This document shows positions 3,192 to 58,055 of a DNA stretch of 64,000 bases, piece after piece. The notes beneath the pieces are model-generated. The model was not told where the DNA came from. It made no database searches and saw nothing but the letters and a program-made list of their open reading frames with translations. Made by a program: the position numbers and the translations under genes. The DNA comes from Burkholderia puraquae (GTDB lineage: Bacteria; Pseudomonadota; Gammaproteobacteria; Burkholderiales; Burkholderiaceae). The number at the start of each line of letters is the position of its first letter. Within the stretch, counting starts at the first letter, position 1. The stretch is taken from NCBI RefSeq assembly GCF_002099195.1, contig NZ_NBYX01000005.1, positions 248,001 through 312,000 on the forward strand, in the 5' to 3' direction.

Positions 3192-4130
3192 ATGTCCTTC
3201 CAGCCCGCTGCGTCCTACACCATCCGCCTGCTTGCGCCGTCCGGCTATCCGCACGACCCGGACGCGATCAATCGCGCGCTCGAGCGCCTCAGCACCGCGC
3301 AGCACCGCATCGAGAACATCGAGGCGACGCAGCGGCGCTTCCAGCGCTTCGGCGGCACCGACGGCGAGCGGGCGGGCGACCTGAACCGTCTTGCCGATCC
3401 CGAGCGGCCGCTGCCGGACATCGCGCTCGCGGTGCGCGGCGGCTACGGCGCCGCGCGCATCCTGCACGGGCTCGACTATCGCGGGCTCGAACGCAGGCTG
3501 CGCGACCAGCCGGTCGCGCTAGTCGGCCACAGCGACTTCACGGCGCTCCAGCTCGCGCTGTACGCGAAGGCGCGCATCAAGACGTTCGGCGGCCCGATGC
3601 TGTCCGCCGACTTCGGCGCGGAAACGCCGAGCGATTTCACGATGCAGCACTTCTGGCAGACGCTGACGCAGCCGAGCACGACGATCATCGCCGAAGCGCC
3701 GCAGGTGCAGAGCGTGAACGTGACGGGCACGCTGTGGGGCGGCAACCTCGCGATCCTCACGTCGCTCGTCGGCACGCCGTACATGCCCGACATCGAAGGC
3801 GGCATCCTGTTCATCGAGGACGTCAACGAGCAGCCGTTCCGGATCGAACGGATGATCTATCAACTGCACCTGTCGGGGCTGCTCGCGCGCCAGCAGGCGC
3901 TCGTGCTCGGCCAGTTCACCGGCGCGCGGCCGTTCGAGTACGACAACGGCTACGACATGCAGGCGATGATCGACCAGGTGCGCGCAGTGGTCGGGATTCC
4001 GGTCGTCACGGGGCTCCAGTTCGGCCACGTGCCCGATCTGCTGACGCTACCGTTCGGCGCGCAGGCGCAACTGGTCGCGAATGCGCACGGCTTCCGGCTC
4101 ACGCTGTCGGACTATCCGCACCTTGGCTGA
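3192..4130 (+). CDS. ldcA: Muramoyltetrapeptide LD-carboxypeptidase (S66 family)
   Basis: The 312-residue product matches the cytoplasmic LD-carboxypeptidases that trim the terminal D-Ala from murein tetrapeptide during cell-wall recycling. The nucleophile elbow VGHSDFTAL places the catalytic serine at residue 114. Acidic (IEDVNEQPF) and histidine (QFGHVPDLL) blocks follow in the order expected for the Ser-Glu-His triad. The related MccF microcin-C hydrolases share this fold, so a detoxifying role cannot be fully excluded. A GAACCG/CGGTTC hairpin lies upstream at 3133-3148. The gene is followed by a clear terminator. Confidence 0.88.
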   Translation: MSFQPAASYTIRLLAPSGYPHDPDAINRALERLSTAQHRIENIEATQRRFQRFGGTDGERAGDLNRLADPERPLPDIALAVRGGYGAARILHGLDYRGLERRLRDQPVALVGHSDFTALQLALYAKARIKTFGGPMLSADFGAETPSDFTMQHFWQTLTQPSTTIIAEAPQVQSVNVTGTLWGGNLAILTSLVGTPYMPDIEGGILFIEDVNEQPFRIERMIYQLHLSGLLARQQALVLGQFTGARPFEYDNGYDMQAMIDQVRAVVGIPVVTGLQFGHVPDLLTLPFGAQAQLVANAHGFRLTLSDYPHLG

Positions 4131-43337: not shown

Positions 43338-43424
43338 GCGTGAGTGGCGAAATTGGTAGACGCACCAGGTTTAGGTCCTGACGCCCGCAAGGGTGTGCCG
43401 GTTCGAGTCCGGCCTCACGCACCA
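43338..43424 (+). tRNA. tRNA-Leu (anticodon UAG)
   Basis: The 87-nt gene folds as a class II tRNA: acceptor stem GCGTGAG/CTCACGC, anticodon loop TTTAGGT with anticodon TAG, a long variable arm, GTTCGAGTCC in the T-arm and an encoded ACCA end. The 3' end is the attachment site of the adjacent genomic island. Confidence 0.97.
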
Positions 43425-43445
43425 ACTCTCGTTCCGGTTTGTTCC
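43419..43445 (+). repeat. Left attachment site (attL) of the island
   Basis: The 27-bp sequence from GCACCAACTCTC to GGTTTGTTCC begins in the last six bases of the tRNA-Leu gene. It is repeated identically at 57694-57720. Similarity continues past the core on the right side because a related element once occupied the same site. Confidence 0.9.
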
Positions 43446-43457
43446 CGAGAACTCTTG

Positions 43458-43491
43458 AAACCCGCGATAGCTAAAGGCTTCGCGGGTTTTT
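43458..43491 (+). terminator. Terminator of tRNA-Leu
   Basis: AAACCCGCG pairs with CGCGGGTTT around ATAGCTAAAGGCTT and runs into T. A near-identical copy exists past the right attachment site (57733-57767). Confidence 0.8.
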
Positions 43492-43530
43492 CCATTCTGC
43501 GATGTTCCCGTCATTACCGGTTGAAGCTGG

Positions 43531-43556
43531 GGGCAAGTTGGGGCAAGTTGGGGCAA
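43531..43556 (+). repeat. Short tandem repeat upstream of the integrase
   Basis: GGGCAAGTTG is repeated twice followed by a partial third unit (GGGCAAC). The relic copy at the right end of the island carries only one unit, so the repeat number changed after duplication. Confidence 0.7.
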
Positions 43557-43607
43557 CATTGGGGATAACATAGAAGTGCGTCCCGTCCCAGTCATGGAGT
43601 TGCCCCC

Positions 43608-44810
43608 ATGCCGCTGACCGATACCGCTATCAAGAATGCCAAGCCTGCCGCGAAGCCTACGCGCTTGTTCGACGGTGGCGGCTTGTACCTGGAAATTTCT
43701 CCCGCTGGTGGGAAGTGGTGGCGATTGAAGTACCGGTTCGGCGGCAAGGAAAAGCGGATTTCTCTTGGGGTCTATCCCGATGTCTCGCTAAAAATGGCGC
43801 GCAAGCGATGCGCCGAGGCCCGCGAACGTCTTGCGGTAGGGACCGATCCGGGAGAGGTGAAGAAGGCGGACAAGCGCGCCGCCAAGCTGGCAGCGTCGAA
43901 TTCATTCGAGGCTGTCGCGCTCGCTTGGATGGAGGAGCGCCGCGCTTCGGTCGAACCCGCGCAGTACGAAAAGACGCTGGCGCGCTTCAGGAATGATGTG
44001 TTCCCGTGGGTCGGCAAGCGGCCAATCGCCGAGATCGACGCGCCGGAGGTGCTTACGCTGCTCAAGCGCATTGATTCGCGAGGCGCGCGCTATACGGCTC
44101 ATCGGGTGCGTGCGGAACTCAGTCAGGCGTTCCGATATGGCATCAAGGAAGGTTACTGTAAGGCCGATCCGGCACGTGACCTGCTTGGAGCAATTCCATC
44201 GACACGCACGATTCACTTCGCCTCTATCACCGAGCCGATCAAGGTGGGCGAAATGCTACGCGCGTTCGACGGCTTCACCGGTACTTTTCCCGTTCTCTGC
44301 GGGCTCAAACTGGCCCCTCTGCTGTTCGTACGCCCCGGTGAGTTGCGGAAGGCTGAATGGTCGCAACTCGATCTTGACAAGGCCGAGTGGCGTTATCTCG
44401 TTACGAAGACGAAGACCGATCATCTCGTGCCGCTTGCGACTCAGGCGGTCGCGATTCTCCGTGAGTTGCACTCGCTGACCGGAGGCGGTCGCTACTTGTT
44501 TCCTGGCGCGCGCGATCGGAATCGCCCGATGAGCGATGCCGCTATCAATGCCGCACTGCGTCGGCTGGGCTACGACACACGTACAGAAATAACCGGACAC
44601 GGATTCCGCGCGATGGCCAGAACGATCCTCCACGAGGAACTTGAGCAGAAGCCCGAAGTAATCGAGCATCAACTCGCGCACGCGGTTCCTGATGTGCTCG
44701 GCGGCGCATATAACCGGACGCGGTTCATCAAAGAACGCCGGGCGATGATGCAGAAGTGGGCCGACTACCTCGACCGGCTCAAGAAAGGCCCGGTGACTGC
44801 TGTTTCTTAG
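43608..44810 (+). CDS. Tyrosine integrase of the island
   Basis: The 400-residue enzyme belongs to the P4-type integrases that use tRNA 3' ends. The N-terminal arm-binding DUF4102 domain covers residues ~1-90 (LTDTAIKNAKPAAKPTRLFDGGGLYLE, KEKRISLGVYPDVSLKMAR). The catalytic domain contains the active-site residues of the R-K-H-R-H-Y set: Arg in VRPGELRKAEW, His and Arg in HGFRAMART, His in QLAHAVP, and Tyr in GGAYNRTR. It lies 184 bp from the tRNA gene. The frame is intact, so excision may still be possible. Confidence 0.95.
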   Translation: MPLTDTAIKNAKPAAKPTRLFDGGGLYLEISPAGGKWWRLKYRFGGKEKRISLGVYPDVSLKMARKRCAEARERLAVGTDPGEVKKADKRAAKLAASNSFEAVALAWMEERRASVEPAQYEKTLARFRNDVFPWVGKRPIAEIDAPEVLTLLKRIDSRGARYTAHRVRAELSQAFRYGIKEGYCKADPARDLLGAIPSTRTIHFASITEPIKVGEMLRAFDGFTGTFPVLCGLKLAPLLFVRPGELRKAEWSQLDLDKAEWRYLVTKTKTDHLVPLATQAVAILRELHSLTGGGRYLFPGARDRNRPMSDAAINAALRRLGYDTRTEITGHGFRAMARTILHEELEQKPEVIEHQLAHAVPDVLGGAYNRTRFIKERRAMMQKWADYLDRLKKGPVTAVS

Positions 44811-45144: not shown

Positions 45145-46382
45145 TGATCCGCTTGGGTTTCCCGGACCAGATCTAGAGCGAGTTTTGCGGCGTTTCGGGT
45201 TCAGTCGGACCCGATGAAGGCACCAACTGACGGGCGAATTCGGCTGGTGCCAACTCGTTGAGAGCCGAGTGAGGACGACTCTCGTTGTAATCCCGGCGCC
45301 ACGCCTCGACGATCGCCTTGGCCTCGCCCAGCGTTTCGAACCAATCGAGGTTCAAGCACTCGTCGCGGAATGATCCGTTAAACGTCTCGATGTGGCAATT
45401 GTCCGTTGGCTTCCCGGGCCTGCTGAAGTCGATTTTGGCCCGATAGTGGTACGCCCACATGTCGAGCAGGCGCCCCGAAAATTCGCTGCCGTTGTCGACG
45501 AACAGATGCCGCGGAGCCCCGCGCCGAGCGGCGATTCGATTCAGCGCAGACACCACATGTTCGCCTTTCAGCCGTTGTCCGACTTCGATCGCCAATGCTT
45601 CCTTCGTGAAGACATCCACGATCGTCAAGGTGCGAAATTTCGAACCATCAGCGAGCTGGTCGGCCACAAAATCCATACTCCACGCATCGTTTGGTTTGAT
45701 CGGAACGATCTTCGCCACCCGCGTCACCACCATCTTTCGTCGCTTCGGCAACTTCGAGCGCAACTGCAACTGCTCTTCGCAATACAGCCGGTACGCCTGG
45801 TTCCGGCCCAACTGCCAGCCTTCCCGACGCAACAGCACATAGACACGTCGATAGCCGTAGCGCACCCGCGTATGGGCAATCCCGCGCATCCGCGACCGAA
45901 GCTCCGGGCGGGGATCTTTGATGCCTCGGTAGTACTGAACGCTGCGCGGTTGCTTCACGAGCCGACAGGCCCGCCTCATCGTCAATCCGTAGTGGCTCAC
46001 CACGTAATCCACCACGTCTCGCCTCAGCGCGGGCCGGGCCACTTTTTTGATGCAACGTCCTGCAAAATGGCCTTGTCTAGGCTCAGTTCGGCAACCAGCT
46101 TCTTGAACCGCGCGTTCTCCTCTTGCAGTTGCTTGAGCTCGCGCACCTGATCTGACTGCATGCCGGCATATTGCTTCTTCCACCGATAGAACGTCTGTTC
46201 CGAAATACCGACCTGCCGGATCACATCGGCCACTGGCATGCCCAGTTCAGCTTGCTTGAGCACCGCTACAATCTGTTCGATCGAAAAGCGTTTCCGATTC
46301 ATGACAAACCACCTCCTGGTTCAGGGTCAAGTTTGCCGCAAAACTCACGCTCGGATCGGTCCGAGATTCCCAAAGCGGATCA
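45145..46382. mobile_element. IS3-family insertion sequence
   Basis: The element is 1238 bp with TG...CA ends. The left end starts TGATCCGCTTGGG and the right end, read inward on the reverse strand, TGATCCGCTTTGGG. The inverted repeats stay similar for nearly 50 bp, through GAGTTTTGCGGC (45180-45191 and 46335-46346). It contains OrfA and OrfB with a -1 frameshift. I see no target-site duplication in the flanks (CAT/TTT), so either the duplication was lost or a deletion followed the insertion. Confidence 0.88.
45173..46302 (-). CDS. IS3 transposase OrfAB (programmed -1 frameshift)
   Basis: OrfA (46024-46302, 92 residues) holds the helix-turn-helix and leucine-zipper part, with MNRKRFSIEQIVAVLKQAE and YRWKKQYAG. 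OrfB (in frame from about 46060 to 45173) is the DDE catalytic part, with NDAWSMDFVADQL, FVDNGSEFSG and CHIETFNGSFRDECL carrying the D, D and E residues. A run AAAAAAG (reverse complement at 46042-46048) lies at the end of OrfA. A -1 shift there joins the frames as ...VASKKVARPALRR. Both frames appear intact. Confidence 0.9.
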
Positions 46383-46432: not shown

Positions 46433-47551
46433 CTATCGGGAATTCTGTTCGCAGCTTTGCGAGTCGAAGAGGGCCGCGAGTCCACAGGCCGACGCAAACA
46501 TCCGGGAACTGGAATGTGCTACGCCGGAGACCGTGAGCAGATGGTGGGGCGTGTTCGGATCAAGATGATGGATGTACGCGTCAAAGGCCAATCCACGGGC
46601 GTAGCGCGTCGGTCCTTGTGCTTCGGCACCGCACGACCGGTCAAGACCATCCGCATCCGCCGCGTCGTCTTCCGTGCCCAGTAGATAGACAACATCGCGT
46701 TTGAGGTAGTCCGCTTCCCATTGAGCCGCAGGCCGCTGCGACGATACGTACGGGGGCACCTCAGTCTGCATCCCATAGTTCCATCGATTGAACGTGGGGC
46801 ATGAGCCCGCGTCGAATGGCACAAGCGCGCCACTTGCATTCGGCCGGTCATCGGTGAAATACAAGTACGTGGACGGGTTTGCCACGACATATCGAACATG
46901 GATCGGCGTGCCCGCGATCAACGCTTCGCCCCGTCCGACTGCGGCATACCGCTGGACGAACTGTCCGCCTGCCGAATGTCCCGCCAGTACGATCATGCGA
47001 AGGTTAGGGAAGATGGCACGATCCGCAAGGTGCTTGAAGATTTCGTCGACAACCTGAAAGGAACTGACGGTCGCTCTGTCGTCGGATGGCTTGCCTTTAG
47101 GCCAGTCGTTGATGCCCCAACCGAGTATGTCGGCTGGCAGGCGATGTGCGGCAATGTCGTTCTCAGTCAAAAACTGAGGCGTGACAATCAGCGCATCTTT
47201 CGACGCCGCACCCGCTACCTCTGCAGCATGTTCGCCGGAAACCAAATCGCGTCGAGGCCAGCCGTGAATAATGATGACGGCGCGAGTCACGTCGTTCTGT
47301 TTGACGGTCCAGTCGCGAGATACCGCGATCGGTATTTCAGCCGTACCCGACAGCGACGAGACGGCCAAGCGCCCCGGTAGCACGACCGGTACAGGCGTAT
47401 CGACAAGCTGACGCTCGGGCATCGTGGCCGTCTTGGTCATCGGTCCGGCAGCGGATGACGTTGATTCAACGATTAGTACAACAGACAAGGCCCGGACAAG
47501 AAGTCGCAAAGAAGGCAAGGAAATTCTCCGTTGTAGCGTTGTTGGCGACAA
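46433..47551 (-). CDS. Secreted alpha/beta hydrolase in the peptide export locus
   Basis: The 372-residue protein has an N-terminal signal-like region (LRLLVRALSVVLIVESTSSAAG) and the alpha/beta-hydrolase core: an oxyanion HGW at residues 96-98, the nucleophile elbow GHSAGG with Ser193, and GVAHSS near the C-terminus as the likely catalytic-histidine block. It starts 6 bp after the TolC stop, so it belongs to the operon. It may process or protect against the exported product, or act on a lipid or ester; the substrate cannot be assigned. Base composition follows the island. Confidence 0.75.
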   Translation of the reverse strand: MSPTTLQRRISLPSLRLLVRALSVVLIVESTSSAAGPMTKTATMPERQLVDTPVPVVLPGRLAVSSLSGTAEIPIAVSRDWTVKQNDVTRAVIIIHGWPRRDLVSGEHAAEVAGAASKDALIVTPQFLTENDIAAHRLPADILGWGINDWPKGKPSDDRATVSSFQVVDEIFKHLADRAIFPNLRMIVLAGHSAGGQFVQRYAAVGRGEALIAGTPIHVRYVVANPSTYLYFTDDRPNASGALVPFDAGSCPTFNRWNYGMQTEVPPYVSSQRPAAQWEADYLKRDVVYLLGTEDDAADADGLDRSCGAEAQGPTRYARGLAFDAYIHHLDPNTPHHLLTVSGVAHSSSRMFASACGLAALFDSQSCEQNSR

Positions 47552-47557
47552 ATATCG

Positions 47558-49030
47558 TCATGGCGCTTCAGCGTGCGGTGTCCAACGCTGACCGTCGAGT
47601 GTCCCAATCGAAAATGCCAGCACTAGCCGCGACACACGCCAATCGGCCTGCGATTGCACGACCTGACGTTGCGCCGTTGCGAGAGTAGTTTGTGCGTTCA
47701 GAACATCGAGCAGGGGGCCGACGCCGGCACTGTAGCGTTTGCTCGCCACGTCGTACGCTTCCTGCGCGCTTTCCTGCGTCGAAGAGGCGACCTGTAGATT
47801 GGCCGTCTTCGTTATCACGTCCTGATAGTTGCGCCATACGGCCGACGCGACTTCCAGTTCGGCTTTATGCAGGCTTGCGCGATCGATATCAACCTGAGCT
47901 TCCGATGCCTGACGGTGATACTCCTGACCAAACCCGGAAAAGATCGGGATGCTGATCTGAATTCCCACATATTTGCTGTACGTGCGCGTGTCGCGTGGAA
48001 ATGCGCCTAATGACTTGTCGTTGCTCAACGAGCCCGACAAGGAAATCGTGGGAAGTTCCTCCCTGCGTGCAAGTTTCGCGTTCGCTTCGTCAGCTTCGAT
48101 CAGTGCTTGCGCCTCGCGTAACTTCGGGTTGACAGCTTTTGCCAGCGCCAGCAGATCAGCAATCGAAGACGTGAAATTCACGTCCGGTTGAGCGCCCGCG
48201 CTCACATCAACTTCAATGGCAGTTTCGACGGGAATTCCCATGCGTAGGCACAAGGTGCCTTGCGCGGCCTTGAGCGCACCCGTCGCGTTCACGCGTGTGT
48301 AAATTGCTTCCTGCCATGCGGCCTTTGCCTGCAATTCATCGTTTAGTGTACCGGCGCCTGCAAGGTGTTTATGACGGGCAATCTGAAAGCTTCGTTCGGC
48401 ATTCGCCTCGGCGTTGCTCGCCGCATCAAGTGTGCTTTGTGCAGTCCAGACCGCATAAAACGCCGCTGCAGCCTGCTCGAACACAGATTGCAGTGCTTCG
48501 GTATGGCTCGCCTTGGAAAGCTCAAGCAGCCCGTTATAATAGGTCAGATTCGCGTCACGCCTACCGAAATCGAAGAACACCCACGACAGCCGCAACTCAC
48601 CATAACGATCCGATGCGCGGCCCATCGCATCAGGCAGTGTCGGACCAGATAGGGTTTCAGTTTCAACTGTACGCGAACGTGTGCCACTGGCGTCTAACGT
48701 TGGCAACCACGCAGATTTTGCGACACCCACCTGAGCCGCGTTCAAGACCATGTTCGCCCAGCTTTCGCGCACGGTCGGATCGCTGCACAGAGCGCGGCTG
48801 ACTGCTTCATACAGGGAAACAGGCGAATTAAGGCGCGCCTCGCTACAGGCGCCTGTAGCACGTGCCATCCGGTTCAAATCGGGCGATACGTCTTCCAATC
48901 CTCTTCGTGTCGAAAATGGATCGAGTTGCGCATGCGTCAGCGGAACGACGAGCCCGGCGACCGCGAGGCAGGCAACAACAAGCGCACAACGGTATGAAAG
49001 CATTCGAAGCGCGACATTCTTCTTTCTCAT
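47558..49030 (-). CDS. TolC-family outer membrane export channel
   Basis: The 490-residue protein has a signal peptide (VVACLAVAGLVVPLTHAQ) and two homologous OEP repeats. Typical blocks are SVFFDFGRR-like WVFFDFGRRDAN in the first half, IPIFSGFGQEYH in the second, and the C-terminal RYSAGVGPLLDVLNAQTTLATAQRQVVQSQADW. It overlaps the ABC gene by 4 bp. It completes a type I secretion trio with the HlyD and ABC proteins. Confidence 0.92.
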   Translation of the reverse strand: MRKKNVALRMLSYRCALVVACLAVAGLVVPLTHAQLDPFSTRRGLEDVSPDLNRMARATGACSEARLNSPVSLYEAVSRALCSDPTVRESWANMVLNAAQVGVAKSAWLPTLDASGTRSRTVETETLSGPTLPDAMGRASDRYGELRLSWVFFDFGRRDANLTYYNGLLELSKASHTEALQSVFEQAAAAFYAVWTAQSTLDAASNAEANAERSFQIARHKHLAGAGTLNDELQAKAAWQEAIYTRVNATGALKAAQGTLCLRMGIPVETAIEVDVSAGAQPDVNFTSSIADLLALAKAVNPKLREAQALIEADEANAKLARREELPTISLSGSLSNDKSLGAFPRDTRTYSKYVGIQISIPIFSGFGQEYHRQASEAQVDIDRASLHKAELEVASAVWRNYQDVITKTANLQVASSTQESAQEAYDVASKRYSAGVGPLLDVLNAQTTLATAQRQVVQSQADWRVSRLVLAFSIGTLDGQRWTPHAEAP

Positions 49031-51120
49031 GCCGTTTCCCGCACACGCCCAAGCTCAATGACGCGATCGGCCGATGCGATGGTTTCAGGACGGTGCGCGA
49101 CAATGATCCGCGTGATATTCAGCTTGCGCATCGCTGCGTTCACGGCGCGTTCGTTGTTCACGTCAAGATGACTCGTCGCCTCATCGAGCAGGAGCAGTTT
49201 CGGACGGCGGTAAAGGGCGCGTGCGAGCATCACGCGTTGCCGCTGACCTGCGGACAGGGCAGACCCCATGTCTCCGATGTAGGTGTAGTAGCCCATCGGC
49301 ATCGCACGAATATCGGCATGGACGGAAGCCATTTCCGCGCATTCCGCGATCCACGCGAAGTCGGGCGTTGGATCGAAGAAGCTGATGTTCTCGGCAATCG
49401 ATCCGGCGAACAGTCGATCCTCCTGCATCACAACGCCGATCAGGGAACGATAGTTCGCAAGACCCATTTGCCGAATCGGCAAGCCGCCCGCGATAATTTC
49501 CCCCGAATGCGGTGCCAACAAGCCTGCGAGCAGTTTCAGCAACGTCGTTTTGCCTTGACCGGATGGCCCGACAATTGCAACGGCTTCGCCCGCCTCAACA
49601 CGCAGATCGAGGTTGTCGATGATCTTCGGTCCGTTCTTCGAATAGCTGTATGACAATTTCTTGACTTCGAGCGTCGGCACAAATTCATCCACGTCCGGCG
49701 CTCGCATCACTTCATCCGGCTCCCGTTTCGTGAGTACGATATCCGCCAGCCGCGCCGCGTGAAGTTTGAGAATTCGCAGCTCGTACACTTTGTCGATCAG
49801 AGCAGTAAAGCGTGCGGTGAACTGCCCGCGATAGGACAGGAAGGCGAACAGCATCCCGAGCGAGAGTGACCGGTCGATGACGGCAAGCGCGCCGAAGTAG
49901 GTCACTAGAATCGCTTCGAGCCCGAAGATGAAATGATTGCTTGTGGTCGCGATCAGTTGAAGCCGTCGCGTTCGCAGATCAGCGTTCTTCTCGCTTACGA
50001 TCACGTTCAGCCAGCGGGCCAGCCGGTCCTCCGCCTTACCGAACAGGCGCACGCTCTGAATGCCCCGGACCGATTCCATGAGCAGACTTTTGCCCCGTGC
50101 AGCGAAAACGATCTGCTTCTGGTTCGACATGCGCAGCGCGCCATAAATGCAGGCGCGCAAGATCGCGTAGAGCACCACGGCAACCACGCTGATAAGCGAT
50201 AGCCGGGCGTTGTAGACGATCATGATAATGATGGTGCCGATCGACATGAGACCATCGAGCACAGATTCAACGAAGCCGACCGTCAGCGCTTGCTGGATCG
50301 TGTTGACGCTATCGAAGCGGGAAACGATATCGCCGATGTGACGTTTGCCGAAATAGTCGAGCGGAAGATTCAGCAGATGGCGGAACACGTTCGCCAACCA
50401 TTGCACATTCACGAGCGTGCTGAACGTCGTAACAGCCCACGATCGCATTGCCTCTGTCGCGATATGGATCACCAGCACCAACCCGAAACCCAACGCCAAA
50501 ATCAGAAGCAGGTGTCGATCGCCGGTCGTAATGGCTTGGTCCGTGACCCACTCGGGATAGAAGGGCGCAACGATGGTGAAGACTTCAAGCGCAAGGGCGA
50601 GCAGGAAGACTCTGAGCAACCCGCGCCCGACACCACTGGCACGACCCATCAGGGAACGCAGACCGATCTCCTGCTTGTCCCGGCGTGGCTGAAAGGCCGG
50701 CGTCGGCACGAGTTCCAATGCCATGCCGCTGAAATGCAGCGACAATTCCTTGAACGACATGCGCCGCGCGCCGAGCGCGGGGTCAACCAACAGCACATGA
50801 TCGCGGCCAACACGTTCGAGGACGACAAAATGCCGAAAATCCCAATGCAGAATGCACGGCAGCCGCAGCAGGTGAAGCTCTTCCGGTTCCAGTCGAACCG
50901 CGCGCCCGGCAAGATCGAGGGATGCGCCGATCTTGACAAGATCGAGCAGCGTAAGCCCCTTGAGTGATGGCGAAAAGCGTCGCCGCAACGTTGGCAGATC
51001 GGTGTCGTAGCCATGAAACGTTGCGATCATGCTGATGCAGGCTAGTCCGCATTCCGTTGCTTCGGTTTGCAAATGCACGTCAATACTGCGCCGAAATCCG
51101 AATTGAAGTTGGCGGTTCAT
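49027..51120 (-). CDS. Peptidase-containing ABC exporter (C39-type, CvaB-like)
   Basis: The 697-residue protein processes and exports GG-leader peptides. Residues 14-140 form a C39 peptidase with the catalytic triad Cys24 (QTEATECGLACISM), His97 (FRHFVVLER) and Asp113 (DPALGARR), plus Gln18. The six-helix membrane domain spans about 170-440. The nucleotide-binding domain has Walker A GPSGQGKT at 518-525, signature LSAGQ at 622-626 and Walker B LLLLDE at 642-647. All catalytic residues are present, so it should be active. Confidence 0.95.
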   Translation of the reverse strand: MNRQLQFGFRRSIDVHLQTEATECGLACISMIATFHGYDTDLPTLRRRFSPSLKGLTLLDLVKIGASLDLAGRAVRLEPEELHLLRLPCILHWDFRHFVVLERVGRDHVLLVDPALGARRMSFKELSLHFSGMALELVPTPAFQPRRDKQEIGLRSLMGRASGVGRGLLRVFLLALALEVFTIVAPFYPEWVTDQAITTGDRHLLLILALGFGLVLVIHIATEAMRSWAVTTFSTLVNVQWLANVFRHLLNLPLDYFGKRHIGDIVSRFDSVNTIQQALTVGFVESVLDGLMSIGTIIIMIVYNARLSLISVVAVVLYAILRACIYGALRMSNQKQIVFAARGKSLLMESVRGIQSVRLFGKAEDRLARWLNVIVSEKNADLRTRRLQLIATTSNHFIFGLEAILVTYFGALAVIDRSLSLGMLFAFLSYRGQFTARFTALIDKVYELRILKLHAARLADIVLTKREPDEVMRAPDVDEFVPTLEVKKLSYSYSKNGPKIIDNLDLRVEAGEAVAIVGPSGQGKTTLLKLLAGLLAPHSGEIIAGGLPIRQMGLANYRSLIGVVMQEDRLFAGSIAENISFFDPTPDFAWIAECAEMASVHADIRAMPMGYYTYIGDMGSALSAGQRQRVMLARALYRRPKLLLLDEATSHLDVNNERAVNAAMRKLNITRIIVAHRPETIASADRVIELGRVRETA

Positions 51121-51153
51121 GGTTGCTTTGGTTAGGTGAAGCGTGAACTGCGG

Positions 51154-52479
51154 TCAGGGCGAGCGGCGGGTGAGCGTGTACAGCGGTTCCAGTACCCATT
51201 CGTACAGCTTGCGCGTATCGAGCACTACGTCTGCGTCGACGCGCATTCCGTCCTGCAAGGGAATCGCCTCGCCGTAGGCGTTGATGGTCTGTGAATCGAG
51301 CGCAACCGTAATCTGATACAGGTTCTCGGACCTGTCGGCATCACCCGTTTCGGTTGCGGTCTGCAATTGCGACGGGCTCAAGGCGGTGCGCGCGATCTGC
51401 GTGACCTTGCCCGCGTAGGCCCCGAATTTCTGATACGGGAACGCTTCGTATCGCAATTCGACGCGCGCGCCGATCTTGACGAAACCGACTGCCTTGCTCG
51501 GCGCAAATAGTTTCACGTCGAGGTGTCCGCCTTGCGGCAGTAGCGACATCAAAGGCGTTGATCCGTTGACCGACTGACCGGGACGAGTGAGCAGGGCCGT
51601 TACGGTGCCTGCGATTTGCGCCGGTATCGTGATTTCTCGGTTGGATTCGTTGTCGGCGATTTCGCCGTCTACCTGTAGCATTTGCCGGTGGATCGTGCCG
51701 AGTTGGTTTTGTTCATCAAGCGGTGCATTTCGAAGATCGGCCTTAACCCGCGCGAGTTCTGCTTGAGAGGCCGTGCGTTGCTTTCGCAGGTCTTCGAGTT
51801 GCGCCTGACTCATCAGCATGCTTTGCTCGTGCTGCTCGAGTTCGGATTGGGACACCACATCGTCACGCCGCAATTGTGCGAACCGCGCACTGTCGATTTC
51901 TGCCAGCTTCGATCGCGCCTCAAGCGTCGTAATTTCCGTATCCAGATGCTGAATACCCGCGCTCAGTTCGATGGCCTTCGCCTTGAACATCGCAATGTTC
52001 TGTTCGAAGATGCTTTGTATATGCCGCGAGTCGCTTTCCAGGCTGGACCGCCGCGCATTCAGTTCGACACCGATCTGCTGCCGCGAGTTGCCGCCCGCGA
52101 TAGTGCGCTCTGTGGACACGACGACCAAAGGCTGGCCGACATTGACCACGTCCCCTTCGTTGACGAGCACGCGGATAACCGTGCCGACCGTCGGCGCGAA
52201 TATTTCCGCCGCGCCGTTGTCGATCATGACCCGGCCTTGTACCTCTTCCTTGCGCGTGTACTCGCCGAAGATCAGGAACAACACCACGGCGGTCGCGATT
52301 GCGAAGAACACGATACTAGTCGTGAGGCTGCGTGCCGAACCCGTCAGCACGACCTCACCGAGCCATTGATGCTGACGAAATTCGAGCGCAGCGGGGCGGA
52401 ACAGCAACGCACGCTTACTTTGCCGAGGCTGTTCCTCTTCCGGCTGGTCTGCGCTGGGGACGGTCGATATTTCGCTCAT
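51154..52479 (-). CDS. HlyD/CvaA-family membrane fusion protein
   Basis: The 441-residue adaptor has a cytosolic N-terminus, one membrane segment at residues 53-72 (TTSIVFFAIATAVVLFLIFG), a split lipoyl domain (APTVGTVIRVLVNEGDVV), a long alpha-helical hairpin, and the C-terminal beta domain (VELRYEAFPYQKFGAYAGKV). This order matches CvaA/HlyD adaptors of bacteriocin exporters. It lies between the CPBP and ABC genes with short gaps, so it is part of the operon. Confidence 0.92.
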   Translation of the reverse strand: MSEISTVPSADQPEEEQPRQSKRALLFRPAALEFRQHQWLGEVVLTGSARSLTTSIVFFAIATAVVLFLIFGEYTRKEEVQGRVMIDNGAAEIFAPTVGTVIRVLVNEGDVVNVGQPLVVVSTERTIAGGNSRQQIGVELNARRSSLESDSRHIQSIFEQNIAMFKAKAIELSAGIQHLDTEITTLEARSKLAEIDSARFAQLRRDDVVSQSELEQHEQSMLMSQAQLEDLRKQRTASQAELARVKADLRNAPLDEQNQLGTIHRQMLQVDGEIADNESNREITIPAQIAGTVTALLTRPGQSVNGSTPLMSLLPQGGHLDVKLFAPSKAVGFVKIGARVELRYEAFPYQKFGAYAGKVTQIARTALSPSQLQTATETGDADRSENLYQITVALDSQTINAYGEAIPLQDGMRVDADVVLDTRKLYEWVLEPLYTLTRRSP

Positions 52480-52503
52480 GCTTATCTTGTGGTCAGCTGA
52501 TGA

Positions 52504-53457
52504 TCAAACGCGCTGAGCATCGACTGCGCTTGCGGCTTCTTTAGACACAAACCAGCCGTTCGTCTTCTTCAAAAACCAGTACATCAAAGCGAAAGGCAGG
52601 ACACCTTTGAGAATGGAAAAGACAACTGCATCAACTATCAGGACTGGATTGTTTACGAATCCGGATGTTGAAATTTGCGCATGTGGCTGCGCATGGGTGA
52701 ACAGGATCGGCAGCATCATTGCGCAGATGTTCATCATCGTATGCGCACCGATCGACAGTTCCAGTCGTTGATCGCGTAAGCTCAATGCAGAAAAACCAAA
52801 CGAGCAAAAGAACAATGTCGTTTTGATGGGCCAGTCGTACTGTGTGTGGTAGATCGCGAAGAGGGCGGCAACGATTGCCACGACGATGAGCGGGGATCGC
52901 ACATATTGCCCGAGTGTTTGCGTCAACCACCCACGAAAAAACAATTCCTCGGCGAACGCGAGAACGAGAATGCCGAGCCACGCAGCGAGCATCCCGAGAA
53001 TCCGACCGAAACTTGGAATGTCCTGCAGCGGTTGAAGATGCCCGAACGGAAGCGTCCATGCGCCAATTCGAAACGACGTATAGATGGACATGACTACGGC
53101 GGCTATCACGAAGGCAGGCAGATAAAGAGCCGCGCCGAACAGGCAACGCCGAAGTTTGAAACGCAGGTCGACGGAAATCAGGGAGAGGTACGGGCGTCGC
53201 AAGACGATCTTGCATGCAAGCCAGAAGCCTATGATGCCCGTGGTGCTAGCTGTATTGGTGTACAGCGAGATAGCTGCCCGAGCGGCATCAAAATTCTTGA
53301 AATACAGAGTCCAGCCCGAAAACATCAGGACTCCAAGCGTGCTGATGATACTGACGAGCGCGCTAAGAAGGATCGTCAATGCGGTTGCTCGCCAATCAGT
53401 CCGGCCCAGCTTGGCAAGATCAATAAACGCACGCGCTATATCGTCTTTAGTTTTCAT
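52504..53457 (-). CDS. CPBP-family membrane metalloprotease
   Basis: The 317-residue protein has about eight hydrophobic segments and the CPBP (Abi) motifs EELFFR (Glu170, Glu171, Arg175), His204 in FAIYHTQ, and His239-x3-Asn243 in GAHTMMN. Enzymes of this family include Rce1 and many bacteriocin-operon members that process precursors or give self-immunity. It lies directly downstream of the peptide gene and upstream of hlyD. Immunity is the most likely role by analogy with PlnI/SkkI-type proteins, with a second cleavage of the peptide as an alternative. Confidence 0.88.
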   Translation of the reverse strand: MKTKDDIARAFIDLAKLGRTDWRATALTILLSALVSIISTLGVLMFSGWTLYFKNFDAARAAISLYTNTASTTGIIGFWLACKIVLRRPYLSLISVDLRFKLRRCLFGAALYLPAFVIAAVVMSIYTSFRIGAWTLPFGHLQPLQDIPSFGRILGMLAAWLGILVLAFAEELFFRGWLTQTLGQYVRSPLIVVAIVAALFAIYHTQYDWPIKTTLFFCSFGFSALSLRDQRLELSIGAHTMMNICAMMLPILFTHAQPHAQISTSGFVNNPVLIVDAVVFSILKGVLPFALMYWFLKKTNGWFVSKEAASAVDAQRV

Positions 53458-53622
53458 GGGATGCTGATCGAGTGAAACAACGGTTGCTTGCTTTTAGCAA
53501 CGCAATTGCGGTGAGCGGTGTGGTGCTATACCGATGAAGATCAGGCGTCCAGTCGCGGGACCAGTAGCGCGCCGTCATTCATCGATCAGGCTTGGTTCAT
53601 AGCCTGTACATCAGGGCGCTGC

Positions 53623-54075
53623 TTAGTGGTTATGACCGCCGCCACCGATACCGAGCCCGTGTGCGGCAGCGCCAACCGCGTATCCTGCGGCGAAACCGAT
53701 CGGAGAAGATTGGAAGGAGCCGAGGTTGGCAGTTTCAGCCTGACCCAACGAAAGACCCTGTTGCGCGGCGTCATATCCGGCAACGGCCGCGCCGCCCCAC
53801 GTGGACATTGATTCGTCCTGCAAGCCCTTCGTGGCTTCCGCGAGTTGACCGTTGTTTTCAGCCTGCCCGATGGAATCGTTGGCATCGGAGTTGAAGCCTG
53901 CGTCGGCCAACGACGTCGCGTCGCTGCCTACTGCCGAATCGGCTGCGGAATCACCGTCGCCGTCACCATCCCCGTCGCCATCGCCGTATCCACCATCACC
54001 ATCACCATCGCCGTCACCGCCGCCATCACCACCGGCCACGTAGCGCAGCAAATCCAGATCGTCAATCGTTTGCAT
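53623..54075 (-). CDS. Double-glycine-leader peptide with Asp-Gly repeat (predicted C39 substrate)
   Basis: The 150-residue product begins MQTIDDLDLLRYVAGG, a 16-residue leader of the GG type with hydrophobic residues at -4 (Val) and -7 (Leu). C39 cleavage would leave 134 residues. The mature part starts with an Asp-Gly repeat (residues 17-42), then an acidic, Ala/Ser-rich part with DSAADSAVGSDATSLADAG, then a Gly/Ala-rich segment ending HGLGIGGGGHNH. It has no cysteine. The start at 54075 is supported by CAGGAG upstream. I do not recognise the mature sequence; it lies in the operon of its exporter. It may be a bacteriocin or signal, and the Asp-Gly part may bind Ca2+. Confidence 0.85.
   Translation of the reverse strand: MQTIDDLDLLRYVAGGDGGGDGDGDGDGGYGDGDGDGDGDGDSAADSAVGSDATSLADAGFNSDANDSIGQAENNGQLAEATKGLQDESMSTWGGAAVAGYDAAQQGLSLGQAETANLGSFQSSPIGFAAGYAVGAAAHGLGIGGGGHNH
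53950..54027 (-). repeat. Asp-Gly coding repeat
   Basis: This 78-bp stretch encodes residues 17-42 of the peptide, mostly alternating Asp and Gly with one Tyr and one extra Gly pair. The DNA is a degenerate 6-bp tandem repeat (GGCGAT/GGTGAT-type units on the reverse strand) and is likely to vary in copy number between strains. Confidence 0.85.
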
Positions 54076-54186
54076 GTGATCCACTCCTGAAATAAGCGGG
54101 TTTGACGTGTACATCCACAATGGCACCCGCGCAGCCATTGATTCTCAATCGGTTGTCGAAACAGCCGACATGAAAAAGGTCGTGCG

Positions 54187-56949
54187 TCAGGAATCCGAGC
54201 GTTGCAGCACTTGCGACGGCGGTTGCGTGTGCGCCTGCTCGATGAATGCGCCGCGCACTGGAAGGGGATTTGCGCCGTCCGCTATCGCCCAAGTCAGGCA
54301 AGGAGCGACTTCCCACGTTGAGGCCGGAATATCCGGCAGCGCCGCGATAAACGACTCTTCGTCCTTCCACTGATGCAATGTCGATACAGGCAAGAAAGCT
54401 TGCGCCTGATTGCCGTTTCGGCAAATCAGCGCATCCCGATCCATGCGGAAGTGACCACGATGGCGCGTGCGATCAACAGGACGGCCTTTGAATATCAGCG
54501 ACAGGAACACGTGCGACGCACCGGCACGTCGGTCCGGCAGGGACTGTTGCAGATCACGCAATTTCGCCATCTTGGGCGCCGGCACAAGCTGCGTGGTGAA
54601 TGCTGCATCCACGTACCGAGTGACGGCCAGAGCGGAAAGTCGATCTACCACACCCGAGAACGAATCTTCCAGCTCGTCCTGCTTTCGTGGATCGAGCAAC
54701 CACGACACGAAGTGCGTTAGTGCCGTCGCGTCGTATGGAAGCGGAACACCATAGGCCGGCCACGACATATCATCGGTCTGCCGTTCAACGGTATGGCGGT
54801 AAAGCGTGTGCCCTTCGCCGGGCGTCAGTTTGGCGTTGCGCAGCGCGTGCAGATACTGGCCGTGTTCGTTGCTGTATTCAGGGGAGTTCGGCAGCCCTCC
54901 GCCGAGCTTGCCGCCTGCCGTTGCGCGCACGAGTATTCCGAATTTTTCGTGATCCAACTGGTCGACTGCGACTTGCTCAAGCGGTCCGAACAGGCTCACG
55001 CTAACAGCGGTATCGCGCAGCGAATCGACGGCCAGGTTCGCGCACGCCTTCGTCACCGCCACGATGACCGACAACTCCGGTGATAGGTCACGTGGGTCGA
55101 ACGTCCATTGACCGCCGCGCCCGATGCGCTGCAAGGTCGCGCGATTTCGCAGGCTAACGAAGACGCCACCTTGCGGGCGTGCGCCGGTCAATTTGTATCC
55201 CCGCGGATCAGGCAGAGCGGAGCGATTCGCAATTGCATCGACAGCAAGCCGTGCAAGCTGTAATGCGGTCACGTCAACCGGCGACTGCGCGTCTTGTGCT
55301 GGTTCGCGCATGACTGGCGGCGTCACAGACACGCCGTACAGGCGATTGGCCGTCGTCGCAACCATGAGCATCTGATTGACCGCGTCGTATTCGACGGCTG
55401 TTGTCACGGCATCAGGAAGCTGAAACACACCTGAGAGCGCAAACGTTTGAGGATCGATTGCACGTACGCGCCCGTTCGTGCTTCCGAACCAAATCCACGG
55501 GCCGATGCGGGCAGGCGACGAAAAAATCTTCGAGTGCGCGCCGATCTTCGCGATGCCTTCGCCGGTCACCAAATCGATCACGTACAGGTATTTGTCCGTA
55601 GAGCCGCAGTAGGCGCGAGCACCGTCGATCAGCGGTGTTGTGTAGACGGCGTTGCCGGTCTGGATGCAGAAATTCAGTTCGCCGCTATCGAGGCTCACGC
55701 CGCGAATGCCGCCGTCGAACGATCCGAACACGACTTGCCGGCGATCGGGATCGAGTGCGGGCGCATGCTTGACGGCGCCGTTCGTCTGAAACTGCCAACG
55801 AAGTGCGCCGGTACGTGCGTCGAGCGCCAGCAGGGCACCGTCGTTCGTGCCGCAGAGCACCAGCGAACTATCAGCGGCATAGAGCGGGGAGCCATGGACG
55901 TAGCAACGGACTGGGCATTCCCAGACCTTGTGACCGGTTTCAGCGTCGATCGCGGCTATGCCGCCGCCTCGCGTCGGACTGGCGTATTCAACGCCGATAA
56001 AGACCAGATTCAGGTCGGATGCGTAGGCCGGTGAAGAGCCAATCCAATCGGGTTCGACGTATCGCCAGATTTCCCGGCCGCTTTGGGCACACAACGCGTA
56101 CAGGTTACCGTCGTAGCCGCCGAAGAAGACGCGCTCGGGCGTCACGTACGGCGTAGACCAAATCCCTTTCGAGCGCGCCGCCTCGATCTTGAAATTCCAG
56201 CGCGTTTCGCCGCTTGCGCCATCGATGCAACGCATTTCGCCGCTGTCGGTTCCGAAATAGATCAGGCCGCCTTGCGCGCGCGGTGCGGATTTCGGTACGA
56301 CATAGTGATGATTCGCGGAGGCTGCTTTATTGAGCCAGCGCACGAGGAACGAAAGCTGCGTCGAATGGTTCTTCGGAACCGACAGTTTCAGACCGAAATC
56401 ACCTAGAGTGTATGCAGATTCTACTGTAACGCTATGTCGATTTTGCCAGTCCTCACCCGTATTAGACTGGTAGTCGATCACGCTCCACACTTTCCAGATC
56501 GGGCGATCAATTTCCGCTAATACAACTCGTGATTGTTCGATGCTCGCGCCGCTGTTGAAAATATCATCCACGAGCAGAATAGGCGCATCCGAAACTTCAC
56601 CTTCGATAGCGTTCATCCGGCCGTAACGCTTACGCTCTTTGTGAATGATGAAGCCGCCGAGGTTGTGCCCTTTACGTGCGCCGGCTATAAGAATCGCAGC
56701 CACGAGCGGGACAGCGGCCATTTCCATGCCGCCAACCTGAAACGGCAATTGATCCGCATAACGATTCCAGAATAAATCCGCAAGCGTATCGAGCCCTTCC
56801 GTAGAAAGAAGGAGTGGTCGCAAATCGATCAGCCATTTAAGGGACTTTCCGCTTGACGATACAAGCTTGTGTTCTGGCGCGCGAAATATGCATTTCGACT
56901 CAATTAGATCACGTAGCGCGGCCCGCCTGTTCAGGCTGAAATCATTCAT
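54187..56949 (-). CDS. Phosphoribosyltransferase-PQQ propeller-AMMECR1-like fusion protein
   Basis: The 920-residue protein is the first gene of the export operon. Residues ~1-160 resemble an orotate-type phosphoribosyltransferase, with ILLVDDIFNSGAS (124-136) as the PRPP loop. Residues ~230-560 form a propeller of seven PQQ-like blades, each with an SGExxW-like repeat (GEMRCIDGASGETRW, GALLALDARTGALRW and so on). From ~565 to the end the pattern resembles AMMECR1: QLARLAVDAI, GGVFVSLRNRATL and the late AFLPVSTLHQWKDEESFIAAL block. I see no signal peptide. I do not know a characterised protein with this layout. It might modify or regulate the peptide, or bind a nucleotide. A clear Shine-Dalgarno is not visible at the ATG. 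Confidence 0.8.
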   Translation of the reverse strand: MNDFSLNRRAALRDLIESKCIFRAPEHKLVSSSGKSLKWLIDLRPLLLSTEGLDTLADLFWNRYADQLPFQVGGMEMAAVPLVAAILIAGARKGHNLGGFIIHKERKRYGRMNAIEGEVSDAPILLVDDIFNSGASIEQSRVVLAEIDRPIWKVWSVIDYQSNTGEDWQNRHSVTVESAYTLGDFGLKLSVPKNHSTQLSFLVRWLNKAASANHHYVVPKSAPRAQGGLIYFGTDSGEMRCIDGASGETRWNFKIEAARSKGIWSTPYVTPERVFFGGYDGNLYALCAQSGREIWRYVEPDWIGSSPAYASDLNLVFIGVEYASPTRGGGIAAIDAETGHKVWECPVRCYVHGSPLYAADSSLVLCGTNDGALLALDARTGALRWQFQTNGAVKHAPALDPDRRQVVFGSFDGGIRGVSLDSGELNFCIQTGNAVYTTPLIDGARAYCGSTDKYLYVIDLVTGEGIAKIGAHSKIFSSPARIGPWIWFGSTNGRVRAIDPQTFALSGVFQLPDAVTTAVEYDAVNQMLMVATTANRLYGVSVTPPVMREPAQDAQSPVDVTALQLARLAVDAIANRSALPDPRGYKLTGARPQGGVFVSLRNRATLQRIGRGGQWTFDPRDLSPELSVIVAVTKACANLAVDSLRDTAVSVSLFGPLEQVAVDQLDHEKFGILVRATAGGKLGGGLPNSPEYSNEHGQYLHALRNAKLTPGEGHTLYRHTVERQTDDMSWPAYGVPLPYDATALTHFVSWLLDPRKQDELEDSFSGVVDRLSALAVTRYVDAAFTTQLVPAPKMAKLRDLQQSLPDRRAGASHVFLSLIFKGRPVDRTRHRGHFRMDRDALICRNGNQAQAFLPVSTLHQWKDEESFIAALPDIPASTWEVAPCLTWAIADGANPLPVRGAFIEQAHTQPPSQVLQRSDS

Positions 56950-57635: not shown

Positions 57636-57693
57636 AACCAGGCCGGCTGGAATGCGCGGGGGGGAGTACTGCGGGTTTCTGGGTCGCGGCTCA

Positions 57694-57720
57694 GCACCAA
57701 CTCTCGTTCCGGTTTGTTCC
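57694..57720 (+). repeat. Right attachment site (attR)
   Basis: This 27-bp sequence is identical to 43419-43445. It contains the CACCA end of the tRNA but not the rest of the gene, as expected for the displaced copy after integration. Confidence 0.88.
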
Positions 57721-57732
57721 GGAGAATTCTTG

Positions 57733-57767
57733 AAACCCGCGATAGCGAAAGGCTTCGCGGGTTTTTT
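57733..57767 (+). terminator. Copy of the tRNA-Leu terminator beyond attR
   Basis: AAACCCGCG/CGCGGGTTT hairpin with T-run, homologous to 43458-43491, here with no tRNA ahead of it. Confidence 0.75.
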
Positions 57768-57862
57768 ATTCTGCGGTGTTCCGGTCATTGCCGGTTGAAG
57801 CCGGGGGCAACATTGGGGATCACCTGGAAGTGTGTCCTGTTCCGGCTCCGGCGTTGTCCCCG

Positions 57863-58055
57863 TGCCGCTGACCGACACCGCCATCCAGAACGCCAAGCCT
57901 GCTGCAAAGCGTATGCGCTTGTTTGACGGTGGCGGCTTGTAGCTGGAATCTCTCCCGCTGGCGTGAGGCGGTGGCGGTGGAATACCGCTTTGGCGGCAGG
58001 GAAAAGCGGATCTCTCTGGGCGTCTTCCTGGTGTATCGCTACAAGCGGCGCACAA
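57863..58055 (+). pseudogene. Remnant of a second tyrosine integrase (N-terminal part)
   Basis: From GTG 57863 the sequence reads VPLTDTAIQNAKPAAKRMRLFDGGGL then an in-frame TAG where the intact integrase has Tyr. Past a frameshift, EYRFGGREKRISLGVF continues the same domain up to about residue 65. It is the same family as the intact integrase at 43608, so an older element once sat in this attachment site. Confidence 0.88.

Follow-up and report, generated by a model that had tools for sequence, protein, structure and literature searches.

In the 64,000-nucleotide stretch of the Burkholderia puraquae genome analyzed here (hereafter the window; positions 248,001 to 312,000 of contig NZ_NBYX01000005.1, from an assembly of 8.1 Mb in 82 contigs), seven minus-strand open reading frames (ORFs) were confirmed at positions 46433-56949. 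They form the leftward operon proposed in a preliminary description of this DNA and, from 56949 towards 46433, code for a 920-amino-acid (aa) fusion protein, a 150-aa peptide with a double-glycine (GG) leader, a CPBP membrane protein, an HlyD-type periplasmic adaptor, a C39 peptidase ABC exporter, a TolC-family outer membrane protein and an alpha/beta-hydrolase, the gaps between successive genes being 111, 165, 24, 33, -4, and 6 bases. Six of these genes, viz., all except that for the hydrolase, recur in unchanged order in Burkholderia seminalis LMG 24067 (G175) and Paraburkholderia solitsugae 1N; because they have been kept in order in two further species under purifying selection, the operon is a real system, rare and island-borne. 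Its transport half is known, its peptide is an unusual relative of the Cdz-like/microcin V-type peptides, and what is new in the system is the fusion protein.

The six B. seminalis products are 94-98% identical to those of the window, and the P. solitsugae identities range from 93% for the C39 exporter through 86% (HlyD), 82% (TolC), and 75% (920-aa protein) to 53 and 55% for two copies of the CPBP protein, with the peptide at 72% by BLAST (85% of the aligned residues in the codon alignment). Across the six genes (the hydrolase stands outside this comparison) the ratio of non-synonymous to synonymous divergence (dN/dS) is 0.04-0.21 overall, with 0.07-0.21 against B. seminalis (dS ~0.14) and 0.04-0.20 against P. 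solitsugae (dS ~0.9-1.8, near saturation). The peptide gene gives 0.06-0.13, and the lowest and highest dN belong to the exporter and the CPBP protein, respectively. The order 920-aa protein/peptide/CPBP/HlyD/C39/TolC, kept in both of the other species found with a full-length 920-aa protein, joins the peptide to the 920-aa protein, the co-occurrence for which the preliminary description had proposed to look, and places the peptide gene beside a C39 exporter in both other genomes found with the system; the contrary result that the description had named, a peptide gene never conserved next to such exporters, was not encountered. When 84,980 species genomes were scanned for patterns with an alignment of the 920-aa family, a search that is not exhaustive (it missed the locus L038 treated below), 224 matches were obtained, which reduced to eight confirmed loci. 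At E<=0.001 the 920-aa protein has matches in 368 of 398 genomes of the bacterial family; among the matches listed, only those of B. puraquae itself and B. seminalis are full length, five others are phosphoribosyltransferase (PRTase)-propeller proteins, and the rest cover the propeller only. The single positive genome in a separate 398-genome search (limit E 1e-40, at most two candidates scored per genome) is a lower bound.

The exporter (49027-51120, minus strand) and its HlyD (51154-52479, minus strand) and TolC (47558-49030, minus strand) partners were assigned with Pfam and NCBIfam; Peptidase_C39 (110 bits), ABC_membrane, ABC_tran, OEP, HlyD_3, and, for the CPBP protein, Rce1-like all scored above their Pfam cutoffs. 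The C39 triad C24/H97/D113 is intact, as the preliminary description had stated, and a Walker A motif lies at residue 518. Relative to the CvaB triad C32/H105/D121, as given in the accessible part of PMC9746304, the three residues show a constant offset of 8. Of the marks of a class II microcin system, the operon has a peptidase-containing ABC transporter (PCAT) with the C39 triad, HlyD (membrane fusion protein, MFP) and TolC partners, and a double-glycine leader. The export half is an ordinary one of the microcin V/Cdz kind, which bears out the earlier attribution of the exporter trio to colicin V-type systems. With TIGR03796, the model for NHLP/NHLM exporters of ribosomally synthesized and post-translationally modified peptides (RiPPs), the exporter scored 445.9 bits, below the cutoff of 853.3. 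The 30 plasmid matches listed, of at least 5000 records, are all exporters of 44-51% identity, and in 65 Burkholderia genomes the best match after B. seminalis is 53% identical. Given the intact catalytic residues and the gene order, the C39-HlyD-TolC machinery very probably cleaves the peptide after the GG and exports it. The B. puraquae genome has a second C39 exporter on contig 57 (L067 7167-11079), 48% identical to the first and accompanied by a GG-leader peptide candidate beginning MQELNQQEIAQVSGG.

The peptide gene (53623-54075, minus strand) starts with an ATG at 54075 behind AGGAG; a longer ORF from 54138 was disfavored because the match among the three species begins at 54075. Its product has the leader MQTIDDLDLLRYVAGG, identical in all three species, followed by a Gly-Asp-rich repeat, whose length differs among the species at constant composition, and a 108-aa core ending GFAAGYAVG...GGGGHNH. 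The mature form is predicted to have 134 aa, 12.5 kDa, and a pI of 4.05, with 22 Asp/Glu against one Lys. At E<=1 the peptide matches no Pfam family, including those of known microcins; NCBIfam gave Ser-Asp-repeat adhesins alone, far below cutoff, and a tblastn search of plasmids (E<=1, low-complexity filter on) gave no match. It shares with the Cdz-like bacteriocins, as described in the available text of PMC5380434, a leader ending in G[G/A/S], a length within the reported range (150 aa), and a short polar C-terminus (GGGGHNH). For the one or two glycine zippers of those proteins, which Pro or charged residues flank and do not interrupt, it has a putative counterpart in a single GxxxGxxxG (GFAAGYAVG, after PI) near the C-terminus, of a kind that 688 of 10000 shuffled cores carry too. 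The four characteristics used there to recognize Cdz-like proteins are nominally present, and we read the peptide as a putative extended, acidic relative of the Cdz-like class II microcins with an unusual build. The earlier phrase of a previously unseen type of GG-leader peptide was too strong, given the ordinary GG leader, this nominal agreement with the Cdz-like proteins, and the zipper peptides found at sister exporters.

Those sisters emerged from an exporter tree of 19 rows chosen by us, in which the clade of the window exporter joins the exporters of genomes G162 and G225 (support 100/99); with G225 left out (18 rows), it joins that of G162 with the same support. Adjoining the G162 exporter is a peptide whose GG leader MRLLNDNELAIPSGG precedes a glycine zipper and a tail of Gly-Asp; Gly-zipper_Omp scores above cutoff with this peptide, and the microcin V family MccV (PF17508) below cutoff, with an E-value of 4.9e-4. 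The G162 operon also encodes a TraB/GumN protein, a 2-oxoglutarate (2OG)-Fe(II) oxygenase, a DUF6817-GNAT protein, HlyD, TolC, and an alpha/beta-hydrolase without significant similarity to that of the window. By reading, the G225 peptide has 288 aa, a GG leader, a Ser/Thr-rich composition, and a glycine zipper. So the branch uniting the three exporters accompanies GG-leader peptides that combine a low-complexity stretch with a zipper. As observations in their own right, the G162 operon (L064 1616-10806), with its 2OG-Fe(II) oxygenase and GNAT domain, is a possible second modified-microcin cluster, and the 288-aa peptide of the G225 C39 operon (L085 4260-11123) exceeds the 60-151 aa given for Cdz-like proteins in the accessible part of PMC5380434.

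The 920-aa protein (54187-56949, minus strand) comprises a PRTase domain (residues ~1-205), a propeller (~205-545), an AMMECR1-like region (~565-710) that stays below the Pfam cutoff, and a further C-terminus. Residues 1-205 retrieved 16 PDB sequences at E<=0.001, every one named as an orotate PRTase, OMP/UMP synthase, or phosphoribosyltransferase. Invariant across five family members are S31, G34, WLIDLR (39-44), KERK (104-107), and DD (128-129), all within the stretch aligning to orotate PRTases (motif positions 31, 103, and 124). The aspartates of the phosphoribosyl pyrophosphate (PRPP) loop and the lysines of the flexible loop, which have catalytic roles in orotate PRTases, are kept in five of the five members as D128/D129 and K104/K107. 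The domain aligns over most of its own length with PyrE, from which the protein differs in the propeller and the weak AMMECR1-like region fused to the domain, in its place in an export operon, and in having Tyr, Ser, or Thr for the loop His of the PDB entry 2p1z; the pyrE equivalog model gave 57.1 bits, below its cutoff of 106.8. The propeller, of the PQQ/BamB type, was found both by Pfam and by Foldseek on a structure model in which the mean predicted local distance difference test score (pLDDT, averaged over blocks) is ~74 for the PRTase part and ~85 for residues 201-540. The best Foldseek matches are designed propellers and BamB; the names of the former indicate eight blades, the number in BamB as well. 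Only propellers appear among the 50 matches listed of 1997, and the search is thus uninformative on the other domains. A tandem AMMECR1 arrangement in the C-terminus was set aside as unproven, as a profile comparison of its halves gave 0.2% probability and Pfam matched nothing in the second half at E<=1. The C-terminal 376 aa were found in one of 398 genomes of the phylum, namely that of B. puraquae itself; the C-terminal part had no match in the plasmid tblastn search, and among viral contigs a scan by pattern retrieved no relatives of the protein. No signal peptide is apparent by reading, and the protein is accordingly placed, provisionally, in the cytoplasm.

Seven distinct loci encode PRTase-propeller proteins without the AMMECR1-like part, two of them (L047, L048) with 39-41% and five (L035-L039) with 22-26% identity. 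In all seven, a count made without a random-gene control, a large secreted-type protein is encoded within ~7 kb; these include RTX (L037, L038) and RHS/Big (L036) proteins by Pfam, a 2940-aa protein without a Pfam match (L048), and proteins judged by reading (L035, L039, L047). Modifying enzymes are also neighbors, viz., a GT4 glycosyltransferase in L038 (Pfam) and L037 (71% identical to that of L038), a formylglycine-generating enzyme (FGE)-like protein in L048, and an FkbM methyltransferase in L035. Three of the seven loci (L035, L036, L039) have short Gly/Asp/Glu-rich ORFs immediately upstream, to be set beside two such ORFs, those of the window peptide and the G162 peptide, in ~395 kb of sequence from elsewhere (the window and 46 loci, which overlap in part). 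This pattern is suggestive and involves few independent cases. We tentatively infer that the PRTase-propeller protein acts in the cytoplasm, where it would use PRPP in the maturation of polypeptides destined for export. In Bradyrhizobium tropiciagri (L048 6315-21593) the PRTase-propeller gene is flanked by a type I exporter pair and by genes for an FGE-sulfatase-like enzyme and the 2940-aa protein. A conserved ~370-aa protein follows the PRTase-propeller gene in all of L035-L039, its L036 copy without a Pfam match above cutoff.

The CPBP (Rce1-like) protein (52504-53457, minus strand; EELFFR at residue 170, HTQYD at 204, HTMMN at 239) is a candidate immunity protein by virtue of its position, divergence, and duplication, an assignment that we hold at slightly less than an even chance. 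In P. solitsugae the single gene is replaced by a neighboring pair of CPBP genes (L046 13572-15466) that share 45% identity. CaaX proteases are reported within or near many Cdz-like clusters in the available text of PMC5380434. The hydrolase (46433-47551, minus strand; GHSAG, TTG start), whose N-terminus resembles a signal peptide by reading, is an accessory: it was rejected as a core part because its gene is reduced to a 5' remnant after the TolC gene in B. seminalis (L034 ~3640-3850), no hydrolase gene was found after that for TolC in the P. solitsugae locus, and the family is widespread in the genus (35 of 65 Burkholderia genomes at E<=1e-10, partial matches counted). It scored 21.2 bits with Abhydrolase_6, below the Pfam cutoff of 26.3. 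Around L081, one of the three closest relatives taken (L081-L083), BLAST gave no relatives of C39, HlyD, or TolC save two short ATPases matching the exporter. The preliminary description had set peptide, fusion protein, and hydrolase together outside any recognized system; this stands for the peptide, which has no Pfam family, and for the fusion protein, in that a search of the open-licence literature recognized no PRTase-propeller-AMMECR1 protein and no PRTase in a microcin cluster (the absence is unproven), and fails for the hydrolase.

Taken together, these features suggest that the operon produces a class II microcin of the Cdz-like/microcin V type, unusual and acidic in its build, which is matured by the 920-aa protein and from which the CPBP protein protects the producer; the whole of this preferred reading falls a little short of even probability. 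The 150-aa precursor, for which the gene and leader are in evidence, would be made in the cytoplasm, where the propeller might hold the peptide or its Gly-Asp repeat while the PRTase uses PRPP to modify the peptide or a co-substrate. The C39 domain would then cut after the GG and the ABC-HlyD-TolC channel export the 134-aa mature peptide, whose Gly-zipper C-terminus may insert into or aggregate at the membrane of neighboring bacteria, the CPBP membrane protein presumably shielding the producer and the hydrolase being optional. Of the parts of this scheme, an antibacterial action of the peptide is an evenly balanced proposition, and a role of the PRTase protein in maturing it is a tentative one. 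Beyond it, we consider improbable a still wider proposal, in which PRTase-propeller proteins found a new class of enzymes for peptide maturation. Drawing on PRPP, these would attach a phosphoribosyl or nucleotide-like moiety to polypeptides rich in Gly-Asp/Glu ahead of their export, the substrate being a microcin in this operon and giant secreted proteins in the distant relatives; the product would then be a phosphoribosylated, Trojan-horse-like microcin. To our knowledge, phosphoribosylation is not a known RiPP modification.

With the Caulobacter Cdz system, as far as PMC5380434 was accessible, the window further shares a type I exporter, an island setting, and a nearby CaaX protease, and differs from it in that its single peptide is acidic and combines a long Gly-Asp repeat with no more than a short zipper, that it has a TolC gene of its own, and that the PRTase-propeller-AMMECR1 protein is added. 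With microcin V (CvaAB-TolC), as described in the available part of PMC9746304, it shares the C39-triad PCAT, HlyD, TolC, and the GG leader, and differs in the 12.5 kDa acidic mature peptide, the 317-aa CPBP candidate immunity protein, and the extra 920-aa protein; the weak match to MccV belongs to the sister peptide of G162, not to the window peptide. According to PMC9746304, few class II microcins have been validated, most of them from Escherichia coli. The locus shows the export kit of those microcins in Burkholderia/Paraburkholderia, together with a peptide that is long and acidic and a conserved protein whose combination of domains the literature search found in no peptide system described so far. 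If the latter modifies the peptide, its PRPP-based chemistry would be new for ribosomal peptides and would offer an entry to the rare PRTase-propeller family, which is found near large secreted-type proteins.

Several points weigh against the preferred reading. In its mature form the peptide is acidic as well as hydrophilic (22 Asp/Glu, one Lys, pI 4.05), and Gly, Ala, Val, and Ile make up ~47% of the peptide versus 75% in CdzC/D (accessible part of PMC5380434); its zipper is weak evidence, given the shuffled cores that carry one. Its core is well conserved (79% against P. solitsugae past the repeat), in contrast to the high variability ascribed to microcin cores in the available part of PMC9746304. 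In the tree, G162 and G225 sit on long branches flagged unsure among author-chosen rows, and zipper peptides fail to single out the sister clade because they occur beside other exporters too: a pattern search found GG-leader zipper candidates in four of ten exporter loci (L041, L064, L065, L069), three of them off the branch. The CPBP protein has 317 aa as opposed to the 51-216 aa of verified microcin immunity proteins (PMC9746304, same portion), and Caulobacter Cdz did not need the neighboring CaaX protease (PMC5380434, likewise in part). Within the 920-aa protein, AMMECR1 scores 20.5 bits (whole protein) and 23.0 bits (fragment) against a cutoff of 25, and the C-terminal models are poor, with a pLDDT of 41 for the last 376 aa (three sequences). 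Four of the seven distant loci have no Gly/Asp/Glu-rich ORF, L035 and L036 are mutually related, and five of the seven come from one family; the secreted neighbors of all seven were counted without the control noted above. The full system was found in three genomes only, and G162 (best E 2.3e-7) and G225 (1.5e-7) match the 920-aa protein with no more than propeller strength.

This last point, together with the report that CdzC/D are likely unmodified (PMC5380434, in its accessible part), would suit an ordinary unmodified Cdz-like microcin, with the 920-aa protein regulating the operon or making a small molecule and leaving the peptide untouched. We regard this as unlikely, since the 920-aa gene lies directly upstream of the peptide gene in all three genomes and its distant relatives lie near secreted-type proteins and modifying enzymes. 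The conserved core of the hydrophilic peptide would suit a modified signaling or host-directed peptide that is no bacteriocin, comparable to RaxX of Xanthomonas in its leader, its exporter, and the dedicated enzyme that the operon may encode. RaxX is exported by a type I system of the C39 kind. In the RaxX-RaxSTAB system, as presented in the available text of PMC6637879, a dedicated enzyme modifies RaxX, which is tyrosine-sulfated; Pfam found no sulfotransferase (RaxST) domain in the seven window proteins, and the CPBP gene, the island setting, and the microcin-like sister peptides indicate competition instead, leaving a RaxX-like role with a low probability. Lower again is that of an acidic secreted protein, either metal-binding or part of a surface matrix, in which the Gly-Asp repeat would bind calcium and the GGGGHNH end a metal, without any toxic action: a repeat variable in length and constant in composition, and the RTX- or RHS-type proteins near distant PRTase-propeller loci, speak for it, and a mature peptide of 134 aa that has a C39 exporter of its own and a CPBP gene would, in our judgment, be an atypical layout for an adhesin.

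The operon segment is a genomic island, as the preliminary description had it, and adjoins a tRNA-Leu gene (43338-43424, plus strand), the integration site. It is bounded by a 347-base direct repeat with 81% identity between its copies (repeat comparison; left 43419-43765, right 57693-58016, both plus strand), and the GC content drops from ~0.67 to ~0.57. Between the left end and the operon lie genes for a tyrosine integrase (43608-44810, plus strand) and an IS3-type transposase pair (45173-46302, minus strand), both assigned by reading. Promoter and terminator scans gave matches no more frequent than in shuffled sequence, and the tRNA was the sole match in an Rfam search. A reading as a defense system was rejected, as PADLOC, applied to six of the seven proteins (HlyD left out), matched the exporter alone, over its ATPase part. 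The right repeat contains a tRNA tail and the remnant of a second integrase start, and may point to repeated insertion at this tRNA-Leu gene.

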